Origin: an uncultured Atopobiaceae bacterium
GTDB taxonomy: Bacteria > Actinomycetota > Coriobacteriia > Coriobacteriales > Atopobiaceae
DNA: 64,000 nucleotides
Direction of reading: 5' to 3'
Assembly (NCBI GenBank): GCA_944322145.1
Contig: CALUNW010000004.1
Coordinates: forward strand, 1-64,000
Shown here piece by piece: positions 1 to 64,000 of this stretch. The position numbers and the translations under genes are program-made. The notes beneath the pieces were generated by a model, which was not told the origin of the DNA, searched no databases, and saw nothing but the letters and a program-made list of their open reading frames with translations. Numbering within the stretch: position 1 is the first letter of the stretch; each line of letters opens with the position of its first letter.

Positions 1-153
1 GGCGCACATGCCGCACGCGATGCAGAGGCTGTAGTCGATGCGGGCCTGCTTGTCCTCGACGTGCATGGCGCCCGCGGGGCAGGCGCGCTCGCAGAGGCGG
101 CAGCCTATGCAGCCCTCGTCGGCGACCCAGATGCGCCTGGTCTCGTCGTCCAT
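1..153 (-). CDS. 4Fe-4S ferredoxin-type protein, N-terminal fragment
   Basis: This is the first 51 codons of a gene that runs off the left edge. The ATG at 153 is preceded by a GAGGGGAGAG ribosome site. A complete cluster motif is visible (CIGCRLCERACPAGA: C-x2-C-x2-C-x3-C-P), followed by the start of a second one (LCIACGMCA). It therefore looks like a small two-cluster electron carrier or an electron-transfer subunit. It lies downstream of ygfK on the same strand, so it may supply electrons to, or take them from, the YgfK/molybdenum-hydroxylase system. That link is inferred from position only; the remaining protein is outside the window. Confidence 0.75.
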   Translation of the reverse strand, partial: MDDETRRIWVADEGCIGCRLCERACPAGAMHVEDKQARIDYSLCIACGMCA

Positions 154-203
154 GTCTCTCCCCTCGTGGATGGTCGTGCGGAGGGCGGCTCCCTCCGGCT
201 CCT

Positions 204-274
204 CGCCGAGTAAGAGTTATTTGCGAAAAGCGGGGCGATTTGGGCCCTGAAACTGCAAGAAACTCTTACTCGGC
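204..274. repeat. Inverted repeat, CCGAGTAAGAGTT family, copy 1
   Basis: The arms at 204-224 and 254-274 (outer bases CGCCGAGTAAGAGTT) are inverted around a 29-base GC-rich loop. The same arms recur at 22511-22582 with a different loop. It sits between ygfK and the ferredoxin fragment and could act as a processing or termination hairpin, but there is no U-tract. Confidence 0.8.
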
Positions 275-287
275 GCGGGTGGTGCGG

Positions 288-318
288 GTGATGAAAAGGG
301 ACTGTCCCTTTTCATCAC
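288..318. repeat. GGGACWGTCCC palindrome (TGATGAAAAGGGAC arms)
   Basis: This is a perfect 15-nt inverted repeat around one central base. The TGA stop codon of ygfK (317-315) lies inside the palindrome, so the element terminates the reading frame. Near-identical copies are at 23305-23333 and 55715-55743. Confidence 0.9.
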
Positions 319-3311
319 TTGGCGAGCAGGTAGGCGTAGTCGTCGCAGACCGCGCAGATGGTGAGGCGCACGTCCTCGGGCAGGCCGCACGCGGCGTCGC
401 GCACGTCATAGGTGCCCTCGCCGCCGGCGAGGCGCACGCGGAACGTGCCGTCCGGCAGCGGCAGGAAGCCGCGGTTCTCGCTCGCGTCCATGTCCTCGGA
501 GCTCCAGAAGAGCGTGAGCTTGTCCTTGTACGGGCGGCCGCTCCACGGGCAGAAGACGGCGCAGTTGCCGCACTCGTTGCACATGCCGTCCACGTGGACG
601 ACCTGCTGCTGGGCGAGGCCCGGGACCTTGATGGCCACGTTGGCGCGGTTGGGGCAGACGTCGCAGCAGACCTCGCAGACGGTGGCGCAGCCCAGGCAGC
701 GGCTCGTGCGGTCGGCGGCCACGTCGACGCAGACGTCGCCCTTGCGCGCCATGATGGCGTCGAGCTTGTCGTCGCGGACGTTCTTCTCCTCAAAGGACTC
801 GAAGGTGGCGCCCACCATGGCACGCGCCACGGCCTGCGCGTCGGCGATTGCCTCCACGAAGGTGGCCGGCCCGCGGCGGCAGTCGCCGGCGGCCCAGACG
901 TGGTCCACGCCGGTGGCGGTGCCGGCCGGGCGCCCGCGGCGGTCGAGCTCCACGCCCGCGCCCTCGTAAAGGCCGCGCTCGATCTGCTCGCCCACCGCGC
1001 AGATCACGGCGGTGGCGGGAACCTGAGCGGTCTCGCCGGTGCCCTCGGGGCGACGGCGGCCGGACTCGTCGGGCTCGCCGAGGCGCATGACCTCGCAGGC
1101 CAGCTTGCCGTCGGCCACGCCGATCGGGGCCAGGAGCTCACAGAGCTCGACGCCCTCCTCGCACGCCAGCTGCAGCTCCTCCTCGTCCGCCGGCATCTCC
1201 TTCTTGGTGCGGCGGTAGACGATGCGCACGTTCTGCACGCCCGCGGCGCGCTTGGCCACGCGCGCGGCGTCCATGGCGGTGTTGCCGGCGCCCACGATCA
1301 CGACGTCGGTGCCCAGCTCCAGGGGCTCGCCTGCCTTGGCGGCCTCGAGGAACTCCAGGACGTCGATCTCCTCGCCGGCCTTGAGGCCCACCTTGCCGGG
1401 CGCCCACGCGCCGGTGGCAACCACGACGTCGGTGAAGCCCTCGTCGAGAAGCGCCTGCACGCTCGAGACCTCGCGGCCGAGCACGGCCTTGGCGCCAAAG
1501 GCGAGGCAGAGCTCGACGTCACGGTCGATGTCATCGTGGGAGATGCGGAACTCGGGGATGATGTGGCGCGCGACGCCGCCGAGGGCGCTGGTGCGCTCGA
1601 AGATCGTGACCTCGGCGCCCGCGCGCGTGAGGAAGAACGCCGTGGCGAGGCCGGCCGGGCCGCCGCCGATGACGGCGACGTTCTTGCCCGCGGCGCCCGG
1701 GACCGGCGCCACCGGGGTGGCCTTGAGCTCGCGCAGGACCTCGTCGAAGCCGCCGCGGGCCGCGTCGAGCTTGTGGCCGCGGATGCGCGCTCCGTCGGGC
1801 TCGTAGAAGGCGCGCTCGCACTTGGCGCCGCAGGGGTGCGGGCAGAGGTTGCCGGTGATGTGCGGCAGCGCGTTCTTCTCGACGATGATGCGCAGGGCCT
1901 CCGCGAACCTGCCCTCGTCAACGCGGGAGAGGTAGGCCGGGATGTCCTGGCTGATGGGGCAGCCGGTGCGGCAGGGCGCCGTGAAGCAGCTCATGAGCGG
2001 CAGCTCGGCGTCGATCTTGTGGGGCTTGGCCGGCTTGATGGGCTTCTGGTAGTCCTTGCCGGAGGCCACGCGGGCGGCGAGCTCGGTCACGGCGTCAACG
2101 TCCACGACCTCGGAGCGCTTCTCGCCGGCGAGAAGACCGGCGATCTGGAAGAAGCGCTCGTAGCCGCCGGGCTTGAGGACGTTGGTCGCCATGGTGATCG
2201 GCCAGATGCCCGCCGCGTAGAGCTCGCGGATGTTGCGGGCGTCGGCGCCGCCGGAGTAGGAGATGCGCAGGCGGCCGTCGAACTGGCGGGCGATGCGGCG
2301 CGCAAGCTCGATCGTGAGCGGGAACAGCGAGCGACCGGACATGTACATCTCCTCGCTCGGCAGCTCGCCGCGAGTCACGTCAACCGGGAACGTGTTGGTG
2401 AGCTTGACGCCGAAGGCGAGGCCCTTCTCGGCGCAGAGCTTGATCAGGCGCTCGAACATCGGCACGGCGTCGGCCCACTGCAGGTCCTCGCGGAAGTGCG
2501 TGTCGTCGAAGACGATGTAGTCAAAGCCCAGCTCGTTGAGGCGGCTGCGGGCAAAGTCGTAGCCCAGCAGCGTCGGGTTGCACTTGATGTAGGTGTTCAC
2601 GCCCTTCTCGGTGATGAGGTAGGTGGCGATGCGCTCGATCTCGTCGGGTGGGCAGCCGTGGAGCGTGGACTCGGTGACGGAGTTGGAGACCTGCGGGGAG
2701 ACCGAGTTCACAAAGTCGGCGTCGACGTTGGCGAAGCGGTCGAGGTTGGCGAGGGCCCAGTCGCGGCACTCGGCCCAGACCTCGGTGCCGGACGCGTCCT
2801 TCATGCCCTCGATGTAGGCGTCGACCTTGGGGCTCTTGATGCCCTCGAGGCTGTAGCCCACGGACATGTTGAAGACGAAGCCGTCGGGGTCGCCGAGGCC
2901 GTACTCGCGGGCGATGAGCTTGCAGGCCCACCAGGCCTTGACGTACTCGGCGAAGGCGTCGGGCACCGTGAGCTCGGTGGACCACTCGCAGTTGTAGCAC
3001 TCGTCCTCGGCCACGATGCAGGGCTTGTTCACGCAGGCGGAGAGCTCCTCGCCGTCCATGATCTGGACGGTCTTGAGCTCGAAGAAGCGCGAGCCCGCCA
3101 CGTAGGAGGCCACGATGTTCTGCGCCAGCTGGGTGTTGGGGCCGGCGGCCGGGCCAAAGGGGGTCTCGATCTTCTCGGCAAAGATGGGCTCGGCGCCGCC
3201 CTCGTGGACGTAGGCCTTGCGCACGCCGAAGATGCTGGCCTGCGTGTCGTGCTCGGTCAGGATCCAGTCCATTACCTGCGCGAACGGAATCGGCCTCATG
3301 ACGTCGCTCAT
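315..3311 (-). CDS. ygfK: YgfK, putative selenate reductase-type flavoprotein subunit
   Basis: This 998-residue multidomain oxidoreductase has the YgfK layout. The N-terminal ~450 residues resemble a dihydroorotate-dehydrogenase-like barrel. A GltD-type module follows, with Fe-S ligand motifs (APCRTGCPISQD, LCPHPCGAKCERAF), an FAD-binding GGGPAGLA and an NAD-binding GAGNTAMDAA. The C-terminus carries two ferredoxin-like motifs (CLGCATVCEVCCDVCP, CNECGNCAVFCP). YgfK is known as a conserved partner of SsnA and selenium-dependent molybdenum hydroxylases; its substrate is not settled. The ATG at 3311 has a GGAG site just upstream. It follows ssnA by 116 bp in a three-gene minus-strand operon with the nucleobase permease. 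The likely role is electron transfer in purine or related heterocycle catabolism (inference). Confidence 0.88.
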   Translation of the reverse strand: MSDVMRPIPFAQVMDWILTEHDTQASIFGVRKAYVHEGGAEPIFAEKIETPFGPAAGPNTQLAQNIVASYVAGSRFFELKTVQIMDGEELSACVNKPCIVAEDECYNCEWSTELTVPDAFAEYVKAWWACKLIAREYGLGDPDGFVFNMSVGYSLEGIKSPKVDAYIEGMKDASGTEVWAECRDWALANLDRFANVDADFVNSVSPQVSNSVTESTLHGCPPDEIERIATYLITEKGVNTYIKCNPTLLGYDFARSRLNELGFDYIVFDDTHFREDLQWADAVPMFERLIKLCAEKGLAFGVKLTNTFPVDVTRGELPSEEMYMSGRSLFPLTIELARRIARQFDGRLRISYSGGADARNIRELYAAGIWPITMATNVLKPGGYERFFQIAGLLAGEKRSEVVDVDAVTELAARVASGKDYQKPIKPAKPHKIDAELPLMSCFTAPCRTGCPISQDIPAYLSRVDEGRFAEALRIIVEKNALPHITGNLCPHPCGAKCERAFYEPDGARIRGHKLDAARGGFDEVLRELKATPVAPVPGAAGKNVAVIGGGPAGLATAFFLTRAGAEVTIFERTSALGGVARHIIPEFRISHDDIDRDVELCLAFGAKAVLGREVSSVQALLDEGFTDVVVATGAWAPGKVGLKAGEEIDVLEFLEAAKAGEPLELGTDVVIVGAGNTAMDAARVAKRAAGVQNVRIVYRRTKKEMPADEEELQLACEEGVELCELLAPIGVADGKLACEVMRLGEPDESGRRRPEGTGETAQVPATAVICAVGEQIERGLYEGAGVELDRRGRPAGTATGVDHVWAAGDCRRGPATFVEAIADAQAVARAMVGATFESFEEKNVRDDKLDAIMARKGDVCVDVAADRTSRCLGCATVCEVCCDVCPNRANVAIKVPGLAQQQVVHVDGMCNECGNCAVFCPWSGRPYKDKLTLFWSSEDMDASENRGFLPLPDGTFRVRLAGGEGTYDVRDAACGLPEDVRLTICAVCDDYAYLLAK

Positions 3312-3326
3312 TGTTGCTCCTCTCCG

Positions 3327-3359
3327 TGATTCAAAAGGGGACAGACCCCTTTTGAATCA
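3327..3359. repeat. Palindrome, TGATTCAAAAGGGG arms
   Basis: 14-nt perfect arms (3327-3340 and 3346-3359) surround the loop ACAGA in the ssnA-ygfK gap. It belongs to the modular palindrome family, here with the imperfect centre GGGGACAGACCCC. Confidence 0.9.
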
Positions 3360-4862: not shown

Positions 4863-4875
4863 GGGCGAGAAGGAC

Positions 4876-7226: not shown

Positions 7227-7300
7227 CGAGTCGGCGGGCTGCTGCGGGCCGAGGTTCTTCTCGCCTAGCAGGGGCGTCGTCGCCCAGTGTCCTTCTCGTC

Positions 7301-8649: not shown

Positions 8650-10158
8650 CTACCCCTCGAGCTTCTCGGCGAGCATCTTGTTGAAGGCCTTGGGGTTGCC
8701 GGAGCCCTTTGCCGCCTTCATGCACTGGCCCACGAGGAACCCGAGCACCTTCTTGTTGCCGTCACGGTACTGCTGGACCTGGTCGGTGCAGAGGCCGAGC
8801 ACCTCGTCGACGATGGCACCGAGCGCGCCCTCGTCGGTGGACTGGCGCATGCCGTGGGCGTCCACGTAGGCGACCGCGTCCTCGTCGGTGCCGTTGATCG
8901 CGTCGAGCACCTCGCGCGCCTGCGCAAACGTGAGCGCATCCTCGGCGAGAAGACCGGCGATGCCGCGGACCTGCCCCACGGTGAGTGCGTCGTAGCTCGG
9001 CACGAGGTTGACCATGACGTTGGCCAGCGTGCCCACGTTCTTCTCGGCCACGCCCTCGAGGGACTCCTCGAAGAAGGCGGCCACCTTGGGATCGCCGGCG
9101 AGCTGGGCGGCGTCGGCGCGCTTGAGGCCGTAGTCGGCGACGTAGCGGTCGCGCTTGGCGTCGGGCAGCTCGGGGATGCGCGCTCGGCAGCGGTCGATGA
9201 ACTCGTCGGTGAGGTCGAAGGGCGCGAGGTCGGGGTCCGGGAAGAGGCGGTAGTCGTCCGCGGTCTCCTTGACGCGCATGACCACGGTGCGGCGGCGGCT
9301 CGGCTCCCAGTGGCGCGTCTCCTGGTAGACGATGCCGCCCTCCTCGAGGACCTCGGCCTGGCGGCAGATCTCGTACTCGAGCGCGTCGTGGAGGCTCTTG
9401 AACGAGTTGATGTTCTTCATCTCCGTCTTGGTGCCAAACTCCGTGGTGCCGCGACGGCGCAGCGAGATGTTGCCGTCGCAGCGCATCGAGCCGCTCTCGA
9501 GCGAGCAGTCGGAGATGCCCAGGGTGAGGAAGGTCTGGCGCAGCTTCTCCATGAAGAGGCGCGCCTCCTCGGGCGTGCGCAGGTCGGGCTCGGTGACGAG
9601 CTCGATCAGCGGCGTGCCGCAGCGGTTGTAGTCGATGAGGGACTCGGTCGCCGCGGTGATGCGGCCCTCCTCGCCGCCCACGTGCACCATCTTGGCGGCG
9701 TCCTCCTCCATGTGGATGCGCAGGATCCGGATGGGCGCGACGTAGCCGCCGTCGGCGTCCTTCTCGACCGTGGCGTCCGGGCGCTCCTTGGCTCCGGCCC
9801 CGGAGACCTCGAGGTCCAGGTGGCCGTGCATGCAGAAGGCCACCGGCCCCTGCGTGGTCTGGAAGTTCTTGGCCATGTCCGGGTAGAAGTAGTGCTTCCG
9901 GTAGAACATGGAGTGGCGCATGATCTGGCAGTTGGTGGCCAGGCCCGCCATCACAATCGACTCGATGGCCTTCTCGTTGGGCACGGGCAGGGCGCCCGGC
10001 ATGCCCAGGCACACGGGGCAGACGTTGGTGTTGGGCGGGTCGTCGTGGGAGAGGCGGCAGTTGCAGAACATCTTTGTCTCAAGCGTGGTGAGCTCGGTGT
10101 GGACCTCGAGGCCGATCACGGCCTCCCAGTCCTTGAGGACCTCGGCGAGCTTCTTCAT
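8650..10158 (-). CDS. gatB: Asp-tRNA(Asn)/Glu-tRNA(Gln) amidotransferase subunit B
   Basis: This 502-residue protein is a full-length GatB. The N-terminus has the conserved WEAVIGLEVHTEL and the CPVCLGMPGALPV motif, followed by ITAATESLIDYNRCGTPLIEL and the GGIVYQETRHW region. The C-terminal YqeY-like tail domain ends with the family GQCMKAAKGSGNPKAFN stretch. GatCAB converts misacylated Glu-tRNA(Gln) and Asp-tRNA(Asn), so the organism probably lacks GlnRS and/or AsnRS (established for such genomes; not testable here). The ATG at 10158 overlaps the gatA stop (ATGA), giving tight coupling in a gatC-gatA-gatB operon. Confidence 0.97.
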   Translation of the reverse strand: MKKLAEVLKDWEAVIGLEVHTELTTLETKMFCNCRLSHDDPPNTNVCPVCLGMPGALPVPNEKAIESIVMAGLATNCQIMRHSMFYRKHYFYPDMAKNFQTTQGPVAFCMHGHLDLEVSGAGAKERPDATVEKDADGGYVAPIRILRIHMEEDAAKMVHVGGEEGRITAATESLIDYNRCGTPLIELVTEPDLRTPEEARLFMEKLRQTFLTLGISDCSLESGSMRCDGNISLRRRGTTEFGTKTEMKNINSFKSLHDALEYEICRQAEVLEEGGIVYQETRHWEPSRRRTVVMRVKETADDYRLFPDPDLAPFDLTDEFIDRCRARIPELPDAKRDRYVADYGLKRADAAQLAGDPKVAAFFEESLEGVAEKNVGTLANVMVNLVPSYDALTVGQVRGIAGLLAEDALTFAQAREVLDAINGTDEDAVAYVDAHGMRQSTDEGALGAIVDEVLGLCTDQVQQYRDGNKKVLGFLVGQCMKAAKGSGNPKAFNKMLAEKLEG

Positions 10159-11660
10159 GCGAGCTCACCCCCCTTCCCGGCAAAGGCGGGCGCGACTGGG
10201 GCCCCGCCGTCGGGCGAGAAGGACCGCTCGATCGCGCGCGCAAACGTGAGCAGCCGCGCGTCGGCGAAGGCCGGGCCCTGCAGCTGCGCCGACACGGGCA
10301 GGCCGGTCGCGGCGCCCAGGCCCAGCGGCACCGAGACGCCGCCGTTGCCAGCGATGTTGTTGGAGATCGTGAACATGTCCGACGCGTACATCTGCGTGGG
10401 GTCGGAGAGCTCGCCGAACTTGAACGCCGTGCGCGGCGCGGCGGGCATGAGGATGACATCGCACTTCTCGTACGCGCGGGCATAGTCGGCCGTGATGAGG
10501 GTGCGGACCTGCTGCGCCGGGTAGTAGTACGTATCGTAGACGCCCGAGGAGAGCAGGTAGGCGCCCAGCATCTGGCGGCGCTTGGCCTCCTCGCCAAAGC
10601 CGTGCGCACGGGAGAGCGAGGTCTGCTCGGCCAGCGTGGCCTGGCCGGGCTCCTGGTAGCCGTAGCGCACGCCGTCAAAGCGCGCGAGGTTGGAGAAAGC
10701 CTCGCACGGCGCGATCACGTAGTAGGCCGCGATGGCCGAGGCGATGTTGGGAAGGTCCACCTCGACGAGCTCGGCGCCCTGGTCGGCCAGCGCGCGGGCG
10801 GCGGCGCTCACGGCATCGCGGACCTCGTCGGTGAGGCCGGCGGCCTCCATGAGCGCGGGGACGACGCCCACACGACGGCCCTCGATGGGGTCGTCGAGGT
10901 GCGCGGCGAAGTCGCACGCGACGGGCTGGCTCGTGGAGTCCCACGGATCGCGGCCGCCGGCGGTGAGCGCGTTCATGGCAAGGGCCACGTCCTCGACGCG
11001 GCGGCCGAAGGGGCCGACCTGGTCGAGCGAGGAGCCAAAGGCCACGACGCCGTAGCGGCTGACGGCGCCGTAGGTGGGCTTGAGGCCCACGACGCCGCAG
11101 AGGGAGGCCGGCTGGCGGATCGAGCCGCCGGTGTCCGAGCCCAGCGAGACCGTGACCTCGCCTGCGGCGACGGCAGCGGCCGAGCCGCCCGAGGAGCCGC
11201 CGGGGACGCGCGCGACGTCCCACGGGTTGGCGGTGGGGTGGAAGGCCGAGGACTCAGTCGAGGAGCCGAAGGCAAACTCGTCCATGTTGGTCTTGCCCAC
11301 GGGCGTGGCGCCGGCGTCGAGCAGGCGCTGGACGCAGGTTGCCGTGAACGTGGACTCGTAGTTCTCGAGCATGCGCGAGGCGCAGGTGGTGCGGGTGCCC
11401 ACGAGGTGCATGTTGTCCTTGAAGGCCACGGGCACGCCGGCGAGGGGGCCGAGCCTCTCGCCTGCCGCGCGGGCGCGGTCGGTGGCCTCGGCCGCGGCGA
11501 GCGCGAGGTCCGCGGAGACCTGCAGGAACGCCTTGACCTCGCCGTCGCGGGCCTCCACGGCGTCGAGCGCCGCGCGGGCCACCTCGACGGCCGTGAAATC
11601 GCCGTTTGCGACGCCCGCGGCGATCTCGCGCGCGGAGAGCTGGTCGAAGTTGGCTGCCAT
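10155..11660 (-). CDS. gatA: Asp-tRNA(Asn)/Glu-tRNA(Gln) amidotransferase subunit A
   Basis: This 501-residue amidase-signature protein is the glutaminase subunit of GatCAB. The Ser-cisSer-Lys triad is visible: Lys in VAFKDNMH, cis-Ser in GSDTGGSIRQPAS and the nucleophilic Ser in the same GGSIRQP stretch. The glycine/serine-rich signature PGGSSGGSAAAVAAG precedes it. Length is typical. The start ATG (11660) shares a base with the gatC stop and the stop overlaps the gatB ATG, so all three subunits are translationally coupled. Confidence 0.97.
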   Translation of the reverse strand: MAANFDQLSAREIAAGVANGDFTAVEVARAALDAVEARDGEVKAFLQVSADLALAAAEATDRARAAGERLGPLAGVPVAFKDNMHLVGTRTTCASRMLENYESTFTATCVQRLLDAGATPVGKTNMDEFAFGSSTESSAFHPTANPWDVARVPGGSSGGSAAAVAAGEVTVSLGSDTGGSIRQPASLCGVVGLKPTYGAVSRYGVVAFGSSLDQVGPFGRRVEDVALAMNALTAGGRDPWDSTSQPVACDFAAHLDDPIEGRRVGVVPALMEAAGLTDEVRDAVSAAARALADQGAELVEVDLPNIASAIAAYYVIAPCEAFSNLARFDGVRYGYQEPGQATLAEQTSLSRAHGFGEEAKRRQMLGAYLLSSGVYDTYYYPAQQVRTLITADYARAYEKCDVILMPAAPRTAFKFGELSDPTQMYASDMFTISNNIAGNGGVSVPLGLGAATGLPVSAQLQGPAFADARLLTFARAIERSFSPDGGAPVAPAFAGKGGELA

Positions 11661-11977: not shown

Positions 11978-12154
11978 AGGTCCTCCTATCGTCACTGCGC
12001 CCCATTCTACGACAGGGGCCGGCGGCGCGCGGGGCCCTGTCGCAACATCGCAACCTTACGAAAGCGCAAGCCGGCGGTAAGGCGCATCGATGGCCCCGCG
12101 ACTCCGGCGCACCGACAATGCAAGGCGAGAAGAACCCGAGGCCAGGAGGTCACC

Positions 12155-12510: not shown

Positions 12511-12511
12511 G

Positions 12512-15969: not shown

Positions 15970-17099
15970 TGGCCGAGAAGAACGCGGCTGCGGAGGCCGC
16001 TTGCGCCGCGACGCCCGAGATCGCCCTCGAGCGCGTCAACGTTGCCCCCGCGCAGACGTGGAACCGCCTGCGCACCAACGACATCACGCTGACCGTGCCG
16101 GCGCGCGGGCGTGCCGGCGACGTGTACTTCTCGCTTCCGCGCCTTTTCGAGGGCGTGGAGTGCGGCATGGGCCGCGAGGTCACGGACTGGGCCGAGTCCC
16201 AGGCCGCCGGCGCGCGCTACGTGGAGGTCCCGCGTGGCGAGAAGCGCGAGGAGCCGATCGTGGTGGCCGTGGGCGCGGGAGAGGTCGCCGACACCGGCGT
16301 CATGGTTCGCGAGGGCGCCGAGGCCACCATCGTCGTGGCGGCGGGGGGCGAGAAGGACGGCGAGGCCGGCACCTCCGCGTCGCTTCTGCGCGTGATCGCC
16401 GAGGCCGGCGCGCGCGTGCACCTCTACGAGTACGTGAGCGCGGGCGCGGGGCAGCACCTCGAGAGCGTGGGCATCTCCGCCGGGCGCGACGCGCGCGTCG
16501 ACGTGCACCAGCGCCTGCTCGGCGGCGCCACCGTCGCCCTGGGCTTTGCCTGCGACCTGGCCGACGCCCGGGCGCGCATCGACCTGGACTGCCGCTACCA
16601 CGCGGGCGGCGCCGAGGTGCTCGACATCAACGAGATCGTCCGGCAGCGCGGCCGCAAGACCCGCTCCGAGCTCTCCTACTCCGGCGTCCTCGAGGGCGCG
16701 GCCAAGAAGGGCCTGCGCACCACGATCGACCTTATCCACGGCGCCAAGGGCGCGCAGGGCAACGAGGCCGAGACCGTGCTCGTGCTGGGCGACGACGTGG
16801 TCAACAAGACGCTTCCCACGATTCTGTGCGACGAGGACGACGTCGCCGGCAACCACGGCGCCACCATCGGCTCGGTGAGCCCCGAGCAGCTGGCCTACCT
16901 CGCCGACCGCGGGCTCTCCCGCGAGGACGCCGAGCAGCTCTTCGTGCGCGCCCTCTACGAGGAGGCGCTCATGAACGCCCCCTGCGACGAGGCCCGCGCT
17001 GTAGTGGATGATTCAATTGGGGACAGACCCCTTTTGAATCATGAGGACGATGATTCAAAAGGGGTCTGTCCCCAATTGAATCATCCGGAGGAGGCGTGA
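15966..17099 (+). CDS. sufD: Fe-S cluster assembly protein SufD with a repeat-encoded C-terminal tail
   Basis: This 377-residue SufD partner of SufB contains the family core (LHLYEYVSAGAGQHLESVG-like, VLDINEIVRQRGRKTRS, CDEDDVAGNHGATIGSVSPEQL, YLADRGLSREDAEQLFV). The family-like part ends near residue 347. The last ~30 residues (DDSIGDRPLLNHEDDDSK and on) are translated from an inverted-repeat element at 17008-17084, which stays open in this frame. The native end of the gene was probably overwritten by that insertion (inference). The stop TGA overlaps the sufS ATG (TGATG). Whether the tail affects function is unknown. Confidence 0.93.
   Translation: MMAEKNAAAEAACAATPEIALERVNVAPAQTWNRLRTNDITLTVPARGRAGDVYFSLPRLFEGVECGMGREVTDWAESQAAGARYVEVPRGEKREEPIVVAVGAGEVADTGVMVREGAEATIVVAAGGEKDGEAGTSASLLRVIAEAGARVHLYEYVSAGAGQHLESVGISAGRDARVDVHQRLLGGATVALGFACDLADARARIDLDCRYHAGGAEVLDINEIVRQRGRKTRSELSYSGVLEGAAKKGLRTTIDLIHGAKGAQGNEAETVLVLGDDVVNKTLPTILCDEDDVAGNHGATIGSVSPEQLAYLADRGLSREDAEQLFVRALYEEALMNAPCDEARAVVDDSIGDRPLLNHEDDDSKGVCPQLNHPEEA
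17008..17084. repeat. Compound inverted repeat inside the end of sufD
   Basis: Two 35-nt halves (17008-17042 and 17050-17084) are exact inverses separated by GAGGACG. Each half is a hybrid of two palindrome types in this genome: an ATTCAATTGGGGAC arm and a CCCCTTTTGAATCAT arm. It lies within sufD codons and ends one base before the GGAGGAGG ribosome site of sufS. Confidence 0.93.
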
Positions 17100-19260: not shown

Positions 19261-19394
19261 CACGAACTCGCCTACGTCTGTACTTTACGGGCGAGAAGAA
19301 CCTGCCGCCCCAGCGTTTTCGCAGGTAGTGAGGTTGCGGGTTCTTCTCGCCCCTTTGTGCACGCCAGCAAAGTACAGACGTAGGCGAGTTCGTG
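19261..19394. repeat. Nested inverted repeat with CGCAGGTAG core
   Basis: 26-nt perfect outer arms (19261-19286, CACGAACTCGCCTACGTC..., and 19369-19394) enclose a second inverted pair, GGCGAGAAGAACC (19290-19302) and its inverse (19339-19351). The centre holds CGCAGGTAG (19320-19328). It lies between the convergent rrf2 and fba genes and is presumably transcribed from either side. Confidence 0.85.
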
Positions 19395-19485
19395 GCATGC
19401 CGCCCGCAACACAAACAACGCCCGGCCCCGCGCGCTGCGGGACCGGGCGTTTGCGTTGCCTATGCGACGCGCGCGTTCTTCTCGC

Positions 19486-22472: not shown

Positions 22473-22503
22473 GGCGAGAAGAACAGACGCCGTTCTTCTC
22501 GCC
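22473..22503. repeat. Inverted pair of GGCGAGAAGAAC words
   Basis: GGCGAGAAGAAC (22473-22484) and its exact inverse (22492-22503) are seven bases apart, forming a strong hairpin. This arrangement is reminiscent of uptake-sequence pairs that double as terminators in Pasteurellaceae and Neisseria (analogy only). Confidence 0.8.
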
Positions 22504-25756: not shown

Positions 25757-25830
25757 CTGCGACTCCCCTTCTCCCGGGACGCCTTCTGGCTTTGTCATAC
25801 TTATAGCAGCGAGAAGAACGTGTGTCAACG

Positions 25831-25860: not shown

Positions 25861-25923
25861 TTCACTACCATTGAGCTGCCGAGAAGAACCACTTGCCGCC
25901 CGTCCGCCCAGAAGGAGCCCGCC

Positions 25924-36345: not shown

Positions 36346-36444
36346 AGCCCCCCGTTGTCGGTTGGTAGTGTAGCACGGTCGGGCGGGGCTGACGGCGGGT
36401 ATCATGATCGGATGTGGAGGGGAGCCGAGAAGAACGGAGCGCTC

Positions 36445-43516: not shown

Positions 43517-43564
43517 GGCTGGTTGCGGTCATTTTTACGAGAAGGACCGACCACAACCGGCCCG
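43517..43564. repeat. GGGCTGGTTGCGGTC inverted repeat, copy 2
   Basis: The arms GGGCTGGTTGCGGTC (43517-43531) and GACCACAACCGGCCC (43550-43564) correspond to the element at 8479-8526. The loop contains GAGAAGGAC. It lies between the convergent degV and mtnN genes. Confidence 0.75.
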
Positions 43565-49963: not shown

Positions 49964-50079
49964 GCTGCGTGGTTCCTCTCGCCGTTTTTCTTGCCCTACG
50001 AGTGTAGCGGCATGACCGGACAGAAACCTCCGGCGAGCGAGAAGAACACAGGGCCGCGGTCAGCGCGCCGCGAGTTGAT

Positions 50080-51696: not shown

Positions 51697-53450
51697 CATC
51701 TCTCCTCCGTACCGCGCACGTGCGCGCGCATCAGCATCGCAGTCGATCGTCCGTCGTTTCTTATCGCGAAGGCGCCCGTCGCCGCCGGGACCACGAACGT
51801 CTCCGCGTAGTGCACCCTCATCGGCTCGAAGGCGCCCTCGGGGCTCTCCACGAGGACCTCCTCGCCCTCCACCAGGTTGAGCACGTTGACGGTGCCCGCC
51901 GTGTCGAGAAGGGCGCGCCCGCCGGGCCCCACCGTGTAGCGCCTGGTCTCCAGCGGCTCCAGCGCGTGGAGCCCGGTGCGCTCCACCCGCGCCGCACCGC
52001 AGGGCTCGTCGACGTCCGCCGCCTGGTCCACGAGGCTCTTCTCGACCCACCCCGTGGTGCGGTCCCACCGGATGACCTCGCGGCCGCGTGTCAGGTGCAC
52101 CGGGCGCGGCCGACCGTCCAGGCCCGTGCGCCCCCAGTCCCAGAGCTTGAACGTGAAGATGTAGGGCGTGGCGCTGATCTCCAGGACCATCGTGTTGGCG
52201 CCGGAGCAGTGGACCGTCCCCGCGGGAATGAGAACGTGGTCGTGGCGGCGGGCGGGGCTGCGGTTCACGTAGCGCTCGGCATCGAAGGGGGCGCCTCCCG
52301 CATTGGCCTCCTCCAGGGCGCCCATCATCTCACCGGGGTCCACGCCCTCACGAAGCCCCAGGTAGACGCACGCGTCCTCGCCCGCGTCCAGGATGTAGTA
52401 GCTCTCGTCCTGCGTGTAGGCCATGCCAAACGCGCGCCGGATATAGTCCGTGGTGGGGTGCACCTGCAGCGAGAGGTTCTGCCCGCCCATGGTGTCCAGG
52501 AGGTCAAAGCGGATGGGGAACTCCGCCCCGTAGCGCGCGTAGACGCCCTCGCCCAGGAGCGGCAGCGGCCGCAGGAGCACGAGGTCCATCGCCGGCACGC
52601 GCACCACGGCGTTGTCAAAGGCCAGGGCGAGCGCGTTCTCCTCGGGCACGCCGTCGAAGGACCAGGCGTAGTTGGGGGCGTCATCCGGCAGTCCAAAGCG
52701 CTCGCGCATCCACTGGCCGCCCCACACGCCGGGGTCGAAGTACGGAACCGTGCGGAAGGGACGGCTCGCCGCAACGTCCAATGCGTCCTGGAGCGCCTCG
52801 CCTGTGACGGCGCGGGGCGCGCCCGCCTCCACGGTGTCCACCACGAAGTCCGCCCGGGGCAGCACGCGGGCCTTCACGCGGTCCGCCAGGCGCCACTCCA
52901 CGAAGTAGCCGCGCTTGACCTTGCGCAGGACGTCCTCGCCCGCGTTGTCGCAGCCGTAGTTGGGCATGCCGGCGCGGTAGCGGAGCTGAATCTCCCAGCG
53001 CGTCACGTCCGCGTAGACGAGCACGTCACCGGGGTGGACGAGCGTCGCTCCAAAGCCGCAGACCACCACGAGCCCCTCGGCGCTCGCCACCCGCTCGCGC
53101 GCGGCGGCAAGCGCGTCGGCGTCCATGAAGTCCTCGAGCTCGCCGAAGCACATGCGCCCGAAGACGCGGTCGTCCGTGAGGAAGGGCGCCATGCGGCGCG
53201 TGAGCTCCGCGGGCTCGGGAAAGAGCCCCCGCGTGGCGAGAAGAACGTCCGGCCGCAGATCGCGCAGGGCGTCCAGCAGCTCGTCCTCCCGCACGCCCGG
53301 GTAGCACTCGCACGAGACCACGACGCGCGACGGGCCCGCCGCGCGGAGTTCGTCCACGTGGCGGGCCAGTGCGGCCAGCAGGGCGCCATAGCCAAGAAAG
53401 ACCTCGTGCCCCGGAACGGGAACGGTGGGGAAGCGGTCGTACGAGCCCAT
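51696..53450 (-). CDS. Class I mannose-6-phosphate isomerase-like protein with N-terminal extension
   Basis: This 584-residue protein carries a type-I phosphomannose isomerase-like cupin module in its C-terminal ~360 residues. Family blocks include YFDPGVWGGQWM, NLSLQVHPTTDYI, DESYYILDAGEDA, IPAGTVHCSGANTMVLEIS and YIFTFKLWDWGR, with the metal-ligand pattern QVHP...E...H. The first ~215 residues form a domain I do not recognise with certainty; it has kinase-like alternation (VVVSCECYPG, VVVCGFGATLVHPGD) but no P-loop. Related long ManA forms occur in Gram-positive bacteria. It is downstream of the PTS and probably channels the imported hexose-6-phosphate. Confidence 0.75.
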   Translation of the reverse strand: MGSYDRFPTVPVPGHEVFLGYGALLAALARHVDELRAAGPSRVVVSCECYPGVREDELLDALRDLRPDVLLATRGLFPEPAELTRRMAPFLTDDRVFGRMCFGELEDFMDADALAAARERVASAEGLVVVCGFGATLVHPGDVLVYADVTRWEIQLRYRAGMPNYGCDNAGEDVLRKVKRGYFVEWRLADRVKARVLPRADFVVDTVEAGAPRAVTGEALQDALDVAASRPFRTVPYFDPGVWGGQWMRERFGLPDDAPNYAWSFDGVPEENALALAFDNAVVRVPAMDLVLLRPLPLLGEGVYARYGAEFPIRFDLLDTMGGQNLSLQVHPTTDYIRRAFGMAYTQDESYYILDAGEDACVYLGLREGVDPGEMMGALEEANAGGAPFDAERYVNRSPARRHDHVLIPAGTVHCSGANTMVLEISATPYIFTFKLWDWGRTGLDGRPRPVHLTRGREVIRWDRTTGWVEKSLVDQAADVDEPCGAARVERTGLHALEPLETRRYTVGPGGRALLDTAGTVNVLNLVEGEEVLVESPEGAFEPMRVHYAETFVVPAATGAFAIRNDGRSTAMLMRAHVRGTEER

Positions 53451-53487
53451 GGGGAGGCGTCACCCCCGCCCGTTCTTCTCGCCCACG

Positions 53488-56251: not shown

Positions 56252-56316
56252 GTTCTTCTCCTTACGCGTGTTCTTATCTGATGGCGGGCGCACCCGCCGT
56301 CCTTGCGTCGTGCGGA

Positions 56317-57245: not shown

Positions 57246-57280
57246 GGGCCCGGCGCCGCGGGCGAGAAGGACGCGCCCTC

Positions 57281-58336
57281 CTACGCCCAGCGGCCCACGA
57301 AGCCGAGGACGGCGTCCCAGTAGCGGGCAGGGTCGGCGAAGACCGCGCAGCAATGGCCGGCACCCGGGAAGATATGCAGCTCGTGGCCCGTGCCCGCGCC
57401 CGCGAGCTCGTGGGCCATCTCGACCGGCACCACGCGGTCGCCCTCGCCGTGGAGCAGCAGCACCGGGACGCGCGCGTACGCGATCGCGCCAACCGGGCGG
57501 GCGAGCCGCAGGTCGTAGCCGCCGCGTGCCCGCATCAGGCGCCGGCGCGCCACGTCGAGCAGCGGGTGCGCCGCGACGGGCGGCGTGCCGAGCGAGCCCG
57601 TGGACACGACGTTTTCCGCCGTGCGCCAGAAGTCGGAGTAGCCCGAGTCCGCCACGCAGGCGCGGACCTGCGGCGGGAGGTCCTTCTCGCCCGAGGCCAT
57701 GAGGCAGGAGGCGGCGCCCATCGAGATGCCCATGAGCACCACGCGCGCGCCCTCCCCCGCCCGGTCGGCAACCCAGCGGGCCCACGCCACGAGGTCGCGC
57801 CGGTCGAGCCAGCCGCACCCCACCCAGTCGCCGCCGCTCGCACCATGCGCGCGCAGATCGCAGAAGAGCAGGTTGAACCCCGCCTCGGCATAGCGCCGCG
57901 CGTAGGTGAGGCCGGCGCGCCAGTTGTCGTGATAGCCGTGGGCAAAGACGAGCCAGCGCGGGGAGCCCGGGCGGCACGCGAGCACGTGGCCGGCGAGGCG
58001 GGTGCCGTCGTCGGAGCTCGCCCACACGTCCTCGACGCCCGAGGGCAGCGCGTGCAGCCAGCGCCAGGTGCGGTCCGCCTCCTCGGCGCGGTCCCACTCG
58101 ATGACCTCCCCCTCGTGCGCGGTGAGCCCCGGCGACATGTCGCGCACGCGCGCGTCGCCGCCCCCGCCCAGGTAGGGACCGAGCTCCTCGGAGCCCAGGT
58201 CGCGCTGCGGCCCGAGCACGGCCGGGAGGATCTTTGGCGCCAGGGCAGCTGCCGCCACGCCGCGCGCCGCTGAGGGCAGGCGCAGGGAACGCAGCCAGTC
58301 GAGCAGCCCGTTCTTCTCGCCGCTTCTCTCTCCCAT
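57281..58336 (-). CDS. Alpha/beta hydrolase family protein
   Basis: This 351-residue serine hydrolase has the oxyanion region LVFAHGYHDNW, the nucleophile elbow LMGISMGAASCLMA, the acid in LLLHGEGDRVVPVEM and the His in FPGAGHCCAVF. The N-terminal ~45 residues are hydrophobic/Ala-rich (residues ~20-45) and may anchor it. It resembles the YqkD/COG1073 group of esterase-like proteins. ATG 58336 has an AAGGAGG site. Substrate unknown; it appears to be a single gene. Confidence 0.85.
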   Translation of the reverse strand: MGERSGEKNGLLDWLRSLRLPSAARGVAAAALAPKILPAVLGPQRDLGSEELGPYLGGGGDARVRDMSPGLTAHEGEVIEWDRAEEADRTWRWLHALPSGVEDVWASSDDGTRLAGHVLACRPGSPRWLVFAHGYHDNWRAGLTYARRYAEAGFNLLFCDLRAHGASGGDWVGCGWLDRRDLVAWARWVADRAGEGARVVLMGISMGAASCLMASGEKDLPPQVRACVADSGYSDFWRTAENVVSTGSLGTPPVAAHPLLDVARRRLMRARGGYDLRLARPVGAIAYARVPVLLLHGEGDRVVPVEMAHELAGAGTGHELHIFPGAGHCCAVFADPARYWDAVLGFVGRWA

Positions 58337-58400: not shown

Positions 58401-58542
58401 GAGGGTATGTACGATGCACATACCGGGTATGTACACTCGACGCCAAAGTTCTTCTCGCAAACGCGCAGGTCAGAGGCGTGGGCGAGAAGAGCGGCGGGGT
58501 CTGATAGTGCGCATACCCTACAGGCTGGGTGCGCATACCCTC
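58401..58542. repeat. Imperfect inverted repeat with GGGTATGTAC units and a CGCAGGT core
   Basis: The left block (58401-58436, GAGGGTATGTACGATGCACA...) and right block (58507-58542, GTGCGCATACCCTACAGGCT...) each contain two ATACCC/GGGTAT units and are inverted. The interior has GTTCTTCTCGC (58450), CGCAGGT (58464-58470) and GGCGAGAAG (58481). It lies between the hydrolase start and the phosphatase stop. Confidence 0.7.
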
Positions 58543-59033: not shown

Positions 59034-60515
59034 CTAGCGGCGCGCGTGCTTGCCGGGCGCCGCGTGACGGCCGGCCTTGCGCTGCTGCTCGGGCAGGTCG
59101 AAGCGCTGGCCGCCGGCTCCGGGCCTCACGCGCGGGCGCGCGCCCACGGCCATCTGGTAGCGAGAGCTCCTGCGGCGGCGCGCCGAGGCGGAGACGAGCC
59201 CCACGACCACGAAGACCGCCGCCACGCACACGACCGCGATGACGGCGTGCACCGGGTCGGAGAGCCACCACATCACGAAGTCCGGGATGGAGAGCTCCAT
59301 CGTCTGGGCGGCCACGATCGGCAGGGACGCGAGCCAGCGATCCCCCAGGGAGATGTCCACCATGCCGAGGCCCTGGCCCTCCTCGAGCGGGGCGTGGAAG
59401 GCCCCGGCCTCGGAGTCGATGCCCTCCCACGAGGGCACGAGCGTGAGGTCGGCGAGGGTCGTCTCGCGCGGGACGGTGCCCGCGACGCCGCCGGCGGCCA
59501 CGGCGTCGACCGCGTCGCCGTCGCTCGACAGCATCACGTCCACCCGGCCCATGACGTCGCCCGGGACCACGATGTCGCCCGTGCGCCACGCGCCGAAGCC
59601 CCAATTGAGCATGTTGCGCATGTCGTAGTAGTTCTCGGTGACGCCCTGCGCGTCGGCGTAGGGGGAGCCGCCCAGCACCACGCCCACGAGGCTCAGGTCC
59701 GCGCCCTTCGCGCTGACCACCAGGCAGCGGCCGGCGGCGTTGGTGAAGCCGGTCTTGCCCGCGGTCACGACGCCCTCGCCCATGTAGACGGGGCTCTCGG
59801 GGTCGATGAGCAGGTTGGTGTTCTCGAGCGTGCGCGCGTCGTTGCCGCTCGTGGCGGGCAGGTCCCAGGTCGCGGCGCCCGCGATCTCGCAGAACTCGGG
59901 GTGGGTGCTCGCGGCCCGCATGATGGTCGCGAGGTCGCGCGCGGTGGTGTAGTGGTCCTCGGCAGGCAGGCCGCAGGGGTTGGCAAAGTGCGTGTTCGCG
60001 CAGCCCAGCTCAGCGGCCTTCTGGTTCATCAGGTCCACGAACGCGTGCCAGTCCCCGCCGCCCACGTAGCGCGCGAGCACGTAGGACGCGTCGTTTCCGG
60101 AGGGCAGCAGCAGGCAGGCGAGAAGGTCGCGCACGGTGAGGGTCTCCCCCGCCACGAGGCCCGCGACGGAGCTCTCGGCCGTGACCTCGTCGAAGTCCGC
60201 CTCCTCGACCGTGACCTCCTCGTCCAGGCCCACGTTCTCGATCGTCACCAGCGCCGTCATGACCTTGGTGGTCGAGGCAGGCTCGCGGCGCTCGTCCGCG
60301 TTCTGGTCGAGAAGGACCTGGCCCGTGTCGGCCTCGACGAGGAAGGCCGCGGGCGAGGAGATCGCGGGCGGCTGGTCGGCGGCGTAGACCGGGTCGTTGG
60401 CTGCCTGCGCGACGTCGTCGGCGAGCGCGACGGACGGGGCCTGGGCGCCGGCGGCGAGCAGGGCGACGAGCAGCGACGCGGCAACGCGGGCGACGATGGG
60501 GCGACGGTTTCTCAT
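59034..60515 (-). CDS. D-alanyl-D-alanine carboxypeptidase (serine type, PBP5-like)
   Basis: This 493-residue exported peptidoglycan enzyme has a cleavable signal peptide (IVARVAASLLVALLAAGAQA). The penicillin-binding motifs are SxxK in PASTTKVMTAL, SGN in LLPSGNDASYVL and KTG in AGKTGFTNAAG. A C-terminal beta domain is followed by a membrane span (VIAVVCVAAVFVVVGLV) and a basic tail. It trims the terminal D-Ala of stem peptides. It is preceded 9 bp upstream by uppP, so wall-precursor recycling genes are clustered. Confidence 0.93.
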   Translation of the reverse strand: MRNRRPIVARVAASLLVALLAAGAQAPSVALADDVAQAANDPVYAADQPPAISSPAAFLVEADTGQVLLDQNADERREPASTTKVMTALVTIENVGLDEEVTVEEADFDEVTAESSVAGLVAGETLTVRDLLACLLLPSGNDASYVLARYVGGGDWHAFVDLMNQKAAELGCANTHFANPCGLPAEDHYTTARDLATIMRAASTHPEFCEIAGAATWDLPATSGNDARTLENTNLLIDPESPVYMGEGVVTAGKTGFTNAAGRCLVVSAKGADLSLVGVVLGGSPYADAQGVTENYYDMRNMLNWGFGAWRTGDIVVPGDVMGRVDVMLSSDGDAVDAVAAGGVAGTVPRETTLADLTLVPSWEGIDSEAGAFHAPLEEGQGLGMVDISLGDRWLASLPIVAAQTMELSIPDFVMWWLSDPVHAVIAVVCVAAVFVVVGLVSASARRRRSSRYQMAVGARPRVRPGAGGQRFDLPEQQRKAGRHAAPGKHARR

Positions 60516-62427: not shown

Positions 62428-63537
62428 TTGTCGTCAGAGACACCATCTAGCAGCCGCTGCGCGCGCAGGATCGTGACGTTTGGCCTCGCCGGCCTCATCG
62501 CCGCCTCGACCGCGCTGCTGCCCAAGACCGCTCTCGCCGACACCGCAGAGGAGCTTCAGAGCGCCCAGCAGGCGGTCCAGGAGAGCAACCTGGCCTACGA
62601 GGAGGCGTCCTCGCGCGTCGAGGAGCTCGAGGGGCAGATCGACGCCAACCAGGACCACATCGACGAGCTCGAGGCCCAGCTCCCCGAGCTGCAGGAGCGC
62701 GCGAACGACTCCATCCGCTCCCTCTACAAGATGCAGCAGGGATCCGGTAGCCTGATCGAGCTGCTCCTCTCCGCGGACGACTTCTTCGACCTCGTCTCCA
62801 CGATCCAGTACCTCGACGTCATCCAGTCCCGCAACTCCAGCGCCGTGGACGAGCTCGTGGAGCTCACCGACGAGCTCGCCCTGACCCAGGCCAACCTCAG
62901 CGCCCAGATGAGCGAGGCAGAGGAGGAGCAGGAGCGCGCCGCGCAGGCCCTGAGCGAGGCCCAGGACGCGCGCGACCGGCTCGAGGCCCAGATCGCCGCG
63001 CAGGCCGCCGCCGAGGAGGCCGCCCGCCGCGCCGCCATCGAGGCCGCCCAGCGCGCCGCGCAGGCCGCCGAGCAGACGCCGGGCGAGGACGCCACGTTCA
63101 CCAACGAGTCCGGCACCCAGGCGCCCATCGAGGTCCCGGAGACCACCGACCCCGACATCGTGATCCCCGAGAGCGACCAGGAGAAGTTCGTCGCCGAGTG
63201 GGCGCCGCGCATCGACGCCTATCTCGCCGGCTCCCCCCTCGCCGGGCAGGGCACGACGTTTGCCGAGGCCGCCTGGCAGTACGGCTGCGACCCGCGCTTC
63301 TCCCCCGCCATCTCCATGGTGGAGAGCAGCCAGGGACGCCACTGCTTCCTGCCGTACAACGCCTGGGGCTGGGGCTCCTCGAGCTGGAGCAGCTGGGAGG
63401 AGGCCATCTGGGCGCACGTCGCCGGCCTCGCGTCCGGCTACGGCGGCCAGCTCACCTATGCCGGCGCGCAGAAGTACTGCCCGCCCAACGCCGACGAGTG
63501 GTACGCGAGCGTGCTGGCCAACATGCAGAGCATCTAG
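62428..63537 (+). CDS. Secreted coiled-coil protein with a C-terminal lysozyme-like domain
   Basis: This ~369-residue protein has a signal peptide (RIVTFGLAGLIAASTALLPKTALA) and a long coiled coil of the CwlO/PcsB/EnvC type (about residues 40-220, heptads such as AYEEASSRVEELEGQIDA and LEAQLPELQERANDSIRS). An acidic linker follows. The ~110-residue C-terminal domain (TTFAEAAWQYGCDPRFSPAI, MVESSQGRHCFLPYNAWGWG) looks like a lytic transglycosylase/glucosaminidase fold with a candidate catalytic Glu in SMVESSQG. The start is TTG 62428 (GGAGG seven bases upstream). It is probably a cell-separation hydrolase, possibly controlled by FtsEX as for PcsB (inference). Confidence 0.8.
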   Translation: MSSETPSSSRCARRIVTFGLAGLIAASTALLPKTALADTAEELQSAQQAVQESNLAYEEASSRVEELEGQIDANQDHIDELEAQLPELQERANDSIRSLYKMQQGSGSLIELLLSADDFFDLVSTIQYLDVIQSRNSSAVDELVELTDELALTQANLSAQMSEAEEEQERAAQALSEAQDARDRLEAQIAAQAAAEEAARRAAIEAAQRAAQAAEQTPGEDATFTNESGTQAPIEVPETTDPDIVIPESDQEKFVAEWAPRIDAYLAGSPLAGQGTTFAEAAWQYGCDPRFSPAISMVESSQGRHCFLPYNAWGWGSSSWSSWEEAIWAHVAGLASGYGGQLTYAGAQKYCPPNADEWYASVLANMQSI

Positions 63538-63568
63538 GGTCTCGCGCCCCATCGCGACTTAGGCTCAG

Positions 63569-63596
63569 CGCCCCGCCCGGGACTTCGGGCGGGGCG
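63569..63596. terminator. Shared terminator hairpin of convergent genes
   Basis: CGCCCCGCCCG and CGGGCGGGGCG pair around GGACTT, followed by ATCTTT on the plus side. It lies between the wall protein and the DMT exporter stops. Confidence 0.8.
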
Positions 63597-63625
63597 CGAT
63601 CTTTAGGCTGCCCCAGCCCCACGAC

Positions 63626-64000
63626 CTACGCCGTGAGGTACACCATGGCGATGATGAGCACGAAGCCCACGATCTCCGCGGGCGAGAAGGACGTGCCCAG
63701 CCAGACCACTGTGGCGATCGTCGCCGTGACCGGCTCGATCGTGCCGAGCAGGCTCGCCCGCATGGACCCGGCGTCCTTCACGCCCTGCAGGTAGAGCGCG
63801 TACGCGCCGAAGGTTCCCACCACGACGCACGCCGCGAGCACCGCCACCGCCACGCCGTCGAGAGCCGGCATGTGCTCCCAGGGCCGGTAGACCGCCGCGA
63901 GGATGACACCCGAGAAGAGAAACGCCAGGCCGTTCACCGTGAAGTTGCCCCAGCGCGTCATCGGCGCCGCCGGCAGGATCGAGAGGCACGCGGCGGCCGC
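63626..64000 (-). CDS. EamA/DMT family transporter, C-terminal fragment
   Basis: The last 124 codons of a gene that continues beyond the right edge. The frame stays open to the window end. Four membrane spans and the EamA pattern are visible (GLAFLFSGVILAAVYRPW, GTFGAYALYLQGVKDAGSM, RASLLGTIEPVTATIATVVWLG, PAEIVGFVLIIAMVYLT). The A-S-L-x-x-x-E-P-V motif is characteristic of the second EamA repeat. It is a drug/metabolite-type exporter; the substrate is unknown. Confidence 0.88.
   Translation of the reverse strand, partial: AAAACLSILPAAPMTRWGNFTVNGLAFLFSGVILAAVYRPWEHMPALDGVAVAVLAACVVVGTFGAYALYLQGVKDAGSMRASLLGTIEPVTATIATVVWLGTSFSPAEIVGFVLIIAMVYLTA

Follow-up and report, generated by a model that had tools for sequence, protein, structure and literature searches.

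Why does one short word, GAGAAGRAC (R standing for A or G), recur so often in a single piece of a bacterial genome, between genes as well as within them? The question is raised by a stretch of 64,000 nucleotides, the window (C4:1-64000 of G000, a genome of 2.40 Mb in 25 contigs; G denotes a genome, g a genus and L a fetched stretch, G000 being the window's own genome). The initial annotation had counted roughly 29 plus-strand and 24 minus-strand copies, with about one expected, and this estimate was borne out: the exact matches number 54 (29 plus and 25 minus), against a mean of 0.80 and a maximum of 4 in 100 dinucleotide shuffles. By our home-made gene caller, 17 of the 54 are intergenic, and the word was found within 3 bases of each of the ten intergenic coordinates named earlier. 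Genome-wide, G000 holds 1578 copies (799 plus, 779 minus), or 657 per Mb, compared to 51 (24/27) for the reversed-word control. The abundance of the short word is confirmed. We propose that its sharp form, GNCGAGAAGRAC, is probably the DNA uptake sequence (DUS) of this Atopobiaceae genus, with dialects.

The shape of the word was studied in a 464-kb sample of G000, comprising the window and 20 further stretches (389 genes by the home-made caller). With a leading C, CGAGAAGRAC was seen there 312 times, against 19.9 expected from a third-order Markov model. Its single-base variants mostly stayed within about threefold of expectation, the exceptions (4- to 12-fold) being at bases 4, 7, 8 and 9. 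When intergenic DNA of G000, of G008 and of stretches from further genus members was pooled (200 kb), GNCGAGAAGRAC was present 197 times against 0.34 expected, the copies being partly non-independent, as the pool includes mutually orthologous sites. Any single change inside CGAGAA was represented in this pool by 0-9 copies; changes at the edges were commoner. Beyond the word, the flanks of 175 distinct copies in G000 and G008 are nearly uninformative, save for a weak lean to G+C that reaches about ten bases downstream. A longer dispersed repeat as carrier of the word is ruled out for the bulk of the copies, as the flanks are unconserved; some copies lie within palindromic elements (L013).

The placement of the word bears on the simplest explanation, that it merely reflects how a G+C-rich genome uses codons and amino acids (GEKD, GEKN). 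Coding DNA of the 464-kb sample holds 200 words in 392.5 kb (0.51 per kb) and intergenic DNA 141 in 71.5 kb (1.97 per kb), a roughly fourfold preference for permissive, mainly intergenic DNA. The in-gene words are read in the senses that had been named at the outset: 118 as EKD/EKN, 40 as VLL, 38 as xSFS/xFFS and 4 otherwise. When synonymous codons were shuffled (30 rounds, proteins and codon content kept), coding GAGAAGRAC fell from 200 to 121 (standard deviation, sd, 4), CGAGAAGRAC from 176 to 77 (sd 6) and the 12-mer GGCGAGAAGRAC from 56 to 17.5 (sd 2.4). The shuffle thus reaches about 60% of the genic 9-mers, which is the level of GEKD/GEKN coding; the remainder and the intergenic copies exceed it. 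The initial annotation had seen selection on DNA and not on protein, which holds for the intergenic copies and the coding excess, while much of the in-gene count stems from codon and protein usage. As a full explanation, this usage is ruled out by the intergenic counts together with the shuffle: it is contradicted by the 141 intergenic copies, by the excess of the genic 12-mer and by the intergenic dialects described below, and we give it practically no credence. Neither outcome that had been named beforehand as refuting the claim, a codon model that explains the count or a word limited to coding DNA, was found in the 464 kb, and the shuffle leaves the 141 intergenic copies untouched.

The orientation of the word is balanced. 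CGAGAAGRAC occurs 710 and 705 times on the two strands of G000, and the strand excess per stretch is hardly related to GC skew (r about -0.1, 21 G000 stretches). In G008, 20 stretches spread over 1.73 Mb of a single contig gave 81 words on the plus strand and 88 on the minus strand, without a one-sided run; the largest strand imbalances within the genus are 186/144 (G005) and 526/621 (G009). The strand-bias check suggested by the initial annotation therefore gave no skew, genome-wide or locally, as an uptake word predicts, the replication origin not having been located. Spacing is near-random (coefficient of variation 0.96, against 0.92 with sd 0.05 for random placement; variance-to-mean ratio 0.87 per 20 kb). 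These data speak to a second possibility, that the word marks the chromosome for segregation or domain structure, either as FtsK-orienting polar sequences (KOPS) or as the site of a nucleoid protein. Such a marker would suit a word that is genome-wide, conserved in the genus and sparse in some island-like stretches. KOPS, however, are strongly polar towards the terminus, and no polarity was seen in the 21 stretches of G000 or the 20 of G008; some 600 sites per Mb is, to our knowledge, far above known domain markers. We regard this role as very unlikely.

The word changes form in related genera. Enriched intergenic words were sought in one genome from each of 18 other genera (40-80 kb per genome, four extended to 140 kb, with self-trained gene calls). 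The word of g13 (G054) is TGCCGAGAAACCC; 12 intergenic regions contain GCCGAGAAACCC, where 0.01 would be expected. Genome-wide, GCCGAGAAACC has 175 and 183 copies in two g13 genomes and 64 in a 1.0-Mb g14 genome (controls 6, 8 and 3), and 0-17 in the other 126 genomes of the family survey. Genus g25 (G083) favours GGCGAGAAGNGC, with 15 intergenic copies compared to 3 with A at the eleventh place. Since g1 and g24 likewise hold many copies of GGCGAGAAGNGC, what g25 shows is a shift in preference. GEK coding in G+C-rich genomes confounds the reversed-word control for this form, so that its genome-wide counts are weak on their own. CGAGAA is common to the genus word and to the g13/g14 and g25 variants, and a weak enrichment of CGAGAAG was seen in g12, g16, g24 and g31. 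Other enriched intergenic strings, GGGGAGTACCCCC in g4 (L077-L078, G035) and GACCGAAGCGTCC and GGACAAATGGCT in g11 (L081-L082, L125-L129, G048), are probably parts of longer repeats.

Within its own genus the word is present in 31 of 31 genomes, at 330-1674 copies and always above the reversed-word control. G005 has the lowest count; none of its 330 words falls in 13 kb of intergenic DNA (L066, L067, L070), yet it encodes ComEC, DprA and the Tad locus, which makes it a natural contrast. The family survey covered 129 genomes of at least 80% completeness in 32 genera. GAGAAGRAC numbers 834-1388 in g24, 210-629 in genomes of g4, g10, g12, g17, g21, g22, g25 and g31 and in one of g32, and 26-266 in the remainder, with reversed-word controls of 27-174 across the family. 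There is no sharp divide in these counts, and in-gene GEKD/GEKN coding contributes to them. The raised counts in g4, g10, g21 and g31 had no intergenic counterpart in the 40 kb examined from each (for G071, 1.9 kb of this was intergenic); they may be coding-only, a point in favour of codon usage. In the order survey with CGAGAAGRAC (118 genomes, 10 families), the highest counts outside the family were 248 in G179 (family f10, genus g62) and 222 in G131 (f3, g34), the others having 1-151. Around comEC, CGAGAAGRAC occurs 17 times in 22 kb of an uncultured Atopobiaceae metagenome-assembled genome, 12 times in Olsenella sp. An270, 10 times in Atopobium sp. UBA1382, and 0-3 times in the other 17 of 20 loci counted (of 80 fetched). 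The ComEC proteins of the three named loci are, respectively, 87%, 65% and 63% identical to that of the window genome, and these loci place the window in Atopobiaceae.

The genes that an uptake word would call for were also looked for, and ComEA, ComEC, DprA and Tad/Flp pilus genes were found, in line with the com/pil check put forward by the initial annotation. Of the 129 family genomes, 128 encode ComEC; the exception is G038, a draft of about 260 contigs and 88% completeness. In G000, comEA (SLBB and helix-hairpin-helix) stands directly before comEC, and DprA was found in 8 of 8 genomes tried. The two PF00437 (T2SSE) matches of G000 are a CpaF/TadA-type ATPase in the Tad locus and a PilT-like ATPase, and the genes beside the latter (L069:8869-16596) read like what we take to be a Pel-type polysaccharide operon. 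A single Tad locus was found in G000, with one T2SSE, two T2SSF and one TadE Pfam match, TadZ, Flp and TadG being labelled by order and eye; the locus is conserved in G005, G028, G066, G032 and G082. The Tad minor pilins and a Tad-locus protein of about 140 amino acids are receptor candidates by position only.

Another part of the gene content favours a third possibility, that the genus uses the word as its Chi site, at which AddAB would pause during double-strand break repair and load RecA. Two large adjoining frames of 1142 and 1361 codons at C1:196.7-201.3 kb of G000 have PD-(D/E)XK nuclease matches, as expected of AddB and AddA, and AddAB-like nuclease matches, judged solely by their nuclease domain and frame length, were obtained in all 8 genomes tried. 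Chi words occur in excess and vary from lineage to lineage. Known Chi sites, however, are 5-8 bases long, with a bias to one strand relative to replication; the present word has 10-12, is balanced genome-wide and locally, and is fourfold denser between genes, and word-poor genomes also have the nuclease. A Chi-type orientation bias was not found, no one-sided region being seen in G000 or G008 (origin not located). An assignment to KOPS or Chi by orientation is thus unsupported, the data being without strand bias, and we consider Chi unlikely.

A transcriptional or RNA element, such as a regulator site or the stem of a terminator, has some features of placement in its favour. In the 464-kb sample, word density is 3.37 per kb in convergent intergenic regions, 1.84 in tandem and 1.52 in divergent ones. 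Downstream of 369 stop codons, 43 words begin at a distance of 20 bases or less (15 on the same strand, 28 on the opposite one), and within 60 bases before starts there are 20 same-strand and 3 opposite words, an asymmetry that is unexplained. Some inverted pairs fold stably. Against such a role, 200 of the 341 words are in genes, in several frames and on both strands, and pairs are few: inverted plus-minus order gives 9 pairs within 60 bases among the 341 words, while a set of 261 intergenic words contains 8 within 45 bases. Both window pairs that had been taken for terminators exist and fold (Table 1), and neither showed a T-run; their terminator role is not established, as both were absent from a stem-plus-T-run scan of 19000-26000, which covered loops of 3-8 bases only and possibly missed 19293/19340 for that limit. 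The terminator remark would cover few copies at most, and we hold an RNA or regulator role to be highly improbable. Tandem arrays of the word also occur, with five copies at 14-18-base spacing in L003:10220-10296 and three at 13-base spacing in L012:17488-17522, and G001 shows similar word triplets.

Table 1. The word and its inverted pairs in the window. Word rows are exact matches; intergenic status is from home-made gene calls.
Feature	Position	Strand	Remark
Word GAGAAGAAC	780..788	-	not called intergenic
Word GAGAAGAAC	1872..1880	-	not called intergenic
Word GAGAAGGAC	4867..4875	+	intergenic
Word GAGAAGAAC	7254..7262	-	intergenic
Word GAGAAGGAC	7289..7297	-	intergenic
Word GAGAAGAAC	9037..9045	-	not called intergenic
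Word GAGAAGGAC	9757..9765	-	not called intergenic
Word GAGAAGGAC	10216..10224	+	not called intergenic
Word GAGAAGAAC	12127..12135	+	intergenic
Word GAGAAGAAC	15975..15983	+	not called intergenic
Word GAGAAGGAC	16350..16358	+	not called intergenic
Word GAGAAGGAC	17380..17388	-	not called intergenic
Word GAGAAGGAC	17510..17518	+	not called intergenic
Word GAGAAGAAC	19293..19301	+	intergenic, arm of inverted pair with 19340
Word GAGAAGAAC	19340..19348	-	intergenic, arm of inverted pair with 19293
Word GAGAAGAAC	19475..19483	-	intergenic
Word GAGAAGAAC	21293..21301	+	not called intergenic
Word GAGAAGGAC	21428..21436	+	not called intergenic
Word GAGAAGGAC	21578..21586	+	not called intergenic
Word GAGAAGAAC	22476..22484	+	intergenic, arm of inverted pair with 22492
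Word GAGAAGAAC	22492..22500	-	intergenic, arm of inverted pair with 22476
Word GAGAAGGAC	25043..25051	-	not called intergenic
Word GAGAAGAAC	25811..25819	+	intergenic
Word GAGAAGAAC	25881..25889	+	intergenic
Word GAGAAGAAC	27392..27400	-	not called intergenic
Word GAGAAGGAC	27647..27655	+	not called intergenic
Word GAGAAGGAC	28066..28074	+	not called intergenic
Word GAGAAGGAC	29803..29811	+	not called intergenic
Word GAGAAGGAC	30345..30353	-	not called intergenic
Word GAGAAGGAC	31548..31556	+	not called intergenic
Word GAGAAGAAC	33966..33974	-	not called intergenic
Word GAGAAGGAC	35171..35179	+	not called intergenic
Word GAGAAGAAC	36427..36435	+	not called intergenic
Word GAGAAGGAC	38218..38226	+	not called intergenic
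Word GAGAAGGAC	39276..39284	-	not called intergenic
Word GAGAAGGAC	39688..39696	-	not called intergenic
Word GAGAAGGAC	42072..42080	-	not called intergenic
Word GAGAAGAAC	43124..43132	-	not called intergenic
Word GAGAAGGAC	43539..43547	+	intergenic
Word GAGAAGGAC	44185..44193	-	not called intergenic
Word GAGAAGGAC	47049..47057	+	not called intergenic
Word GAGAAGGAC	47625..47633	+	not called intergenic
Word GAGAAGAAC	48606..48614	+	not called intergenic
Word GAGAAGGAC	49112..49120	-	not called intergenic
Word GAGAAGAAC	50039..50047	+	intergenic
Word GAGAAGAAC	53238..53246	+	not called intergenic
Word GAGAAGAAC	53472..53480	-	intergenic
Word GAGAAGAAC	56252..56260	-	intergenic
Word GAGAAGGAC	57264..57272	+	intergenic
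Word GAGAAGGAC	57680..57688	-	not called intergenic
Word GAGAAGAAC	58310..58318	-	not called intergenic
Word GAGAAGAAC	58448..58456	-	intergenic
Word GAGAAGGAC	60309..60317	+	not called intergenic
Word GAGAAGGAC	63684..63692	+	not called intergenic
Inverted word pair, perfect 12-bp stem, 7-base loop, z -4.9	22473..22503		folding
Inverted word pair, long stem, z -6.0	19289..19352		folding

Strand balance, intergenic excess, dialects with a shared core, and com and pilus genes together fit an uptake word, as the initial annotation had suggested and as the sequences now support; KOPS and Chi predict an orientation bias, which is not seen. The scheme that we infer would combine competence, a receptor, an uptake bias and the dynamics of that bias. 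A surface receptor, probably belonging to the Tad/Flp pilus or docked on it, would prefer double-stranded DNA that carries the word. Retraction of the pilus, along with ComEA, would deliver this DNA to ComEC, through which one strand would enter, to be recombined by DprA and RecA. Word-bearing fragments would be taken up and recombined more often, so that alleles that gain the word would spread and the genome would fill with it where selection on sequence is weak, mostly between genes and on both strands. Drift in the preference of the receptor would give rise to a new dialect, such as GCCGAGAAACC in g13/g14 and GGCGAGAAGNGC in g25.

Several observations weigh against the uptake interpretation. 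The word-poor genomes G005, G066 and G032 also encode ComEC, DprA and the Tad locus; as they share the machinery, gene presence does not predict the word. AddAB-like enzymes are encoded as well, so that enzyme content is compatible with a Chi site. No word with the shared core stood out in 10 of the 18 other genera (g2, g8, g10, g18, g21, g23, g26, g28, g29 and g32, at 40-80 kb each, small intergenic samples that can hide a word); g2 lists CGAGAAAA in 5 regions against 0.4. Inverted pairs are few, and neighbouring words within 60 bases of one another number 22 in the 464 kb, slightly more than the 14.7 given by random placement. Ten relatives were aligned to the window over at most 3.6-43.5 kb, giving 35 usable comparisons of 160 for intergenic words and 170 of 330 for genic ones; the word test allows an A/G exchange at R, while control 10-mers require identity. 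Intergenic words were intact in 14 of 35 cases (control 10-mers 33%), with a word identity of 0.78 compared to 0.84 in the flanks, and genic words in 93 of 170 (control 48%, only slightly lower), with 0.88 compared to 0.83. Conservation of word sites above their flanks by recombination, a usual if not strict property of DUS, was thus not seen for intergenic sites in these 35 comparisons. The excerpts of PMC3630211 used here say of Neisseria DUS that they keep their sequence through recombination, with which the unconserved intergenic sites are at odds. Finally, no report of competence in this group (Olsenella, Atopobium) was found in the open-licence PubMed Central (PMC) literature.

Site conservation among relatives, when considered as support for an uptake word, accordingly gave none. 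Sites come and go and the density stays high in each genome counted, a pattern that fits accumulation by biased gain and not strong protection of single sites. The word is also uneven along G008, where 6 of 20 stretches hold 0-3 copies (mean 8.45). Five word-poor stretches were viewed by eye, with labels unsearched: L103 has an integrase-like gene, L113 transposase-like genes, L105 and L102 carry ATP-binding cassette and phosphotransferase system sets, and L098 has a long part without called genes. Some word-poor 20-kb stretches of G008 thus look like acquired islands, which would fit an uptake word but is suggestive only. The phage terminase PF03354, sought for a word-free prophage control, had no match in the 31 genus genomes, other terminase families not having been tried.

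The window holds further repeats. A 68-base palindromic intergenic element (CCGAGTAAGAGTT...AACTCTTACTCGG) lies at 206-273 and 22513-22580, and in L013 near 115, 2210 and 3579; similar stretches of L013 hold an inverted word pair inside. Dispersed palindromic intergenic repeats (GATGAAAAGGGACTGTCCCTTTTCATC; TGATTCAAAAGGGGACAGTCCCC...) are found at 285-319, 23301-23335 and 55711-55745, and at 3319-3361, 17001-17085 and 18730-18772; pieces near 23301-23335 also match other genus genomes. A 178-base repeat with GCGCATATGGCGGGATTCCGGCACC units lies at 27743-27920, 32890-33067, 50050-50227 and 57023-57200, the copies being 75-89% identical to the first. Rfam gave no match at gathering score in the window.

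A wider claim, which we hold to be rather likely and somewhat less secure than the uptake word itself, is that this is a third independent origin of transformation guided by an uptake sequence and the first in Gram-positives (Actinomycetota, Coriobacteriia), with a receptor on the Tad/Flp pilus and with genus dialects that would act as barriers to gene flow among Atopobiaceae. No report of the word, or of a DNA uptake sequence in Coriobacteria, was found in the open-licence PMC literature. If true, self-specific uptake would have a third case, in a distant phylum and with a different pilus, and one could ask whether receptor preference, drive-like spread of a word and dialects as mating barriers evolve repeatedly. 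The uptake interpretation predicts that these bacteria are naturally transformable, and the word would be a ready bait for finding the receptor.

The known systems are described here from excerpts of three papers. Neisseriaceae and Pasteurellaceae, two unrelated Gram-negative families, are stated to be the only ones known for self-specific DNA uptake (2025, PMC12616744). Neisseria DUS have dialects with an invariant CTG core, a permissive intergenic location and inverted pairs (PMC3630211). The present word shares with Neisseriaceae DUS a non-palindromic form of 10-12 bases, strand neutrality, hundreds to more than 1000 copies and an intergenic preference (PMC3630211, PMC12616744), along with some inverted pairs, com genes and core-sharing dialects (CTG in DUS, CGAGAA here). 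It differs in being an unrelated word of Actinomycetota, known from sequence alone, whereas the DUS has the minor pilin ComP as receptor; the ATPases of G000 are only of CpaF/TadA type and PilT-like, and its intergenic sites were not seen to be conserved. With the uptake signal sequences (USS) of Pasteurellaceae it shares divergent dialects and a comparable range of density, 657 GAGAAGRAC per Mb here and 31-913 USS per Mb quoted there (PMC12616744), while word, phylum and pilus are unrelated. Micrococcus luteus transforms via Tad/Flp pili and ComEA/ComEC, a combination frequent in the actinobacterial lineage (PMC4322843). The phylum and a Tad locus with ComEA/ComEC are thus common to both; in contrast, M. 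luteus needs two tad clusters and one Tad locus was found in G000, and the terms 'uptake sequence' and 'specific sequence' are absent from PMC4322843.

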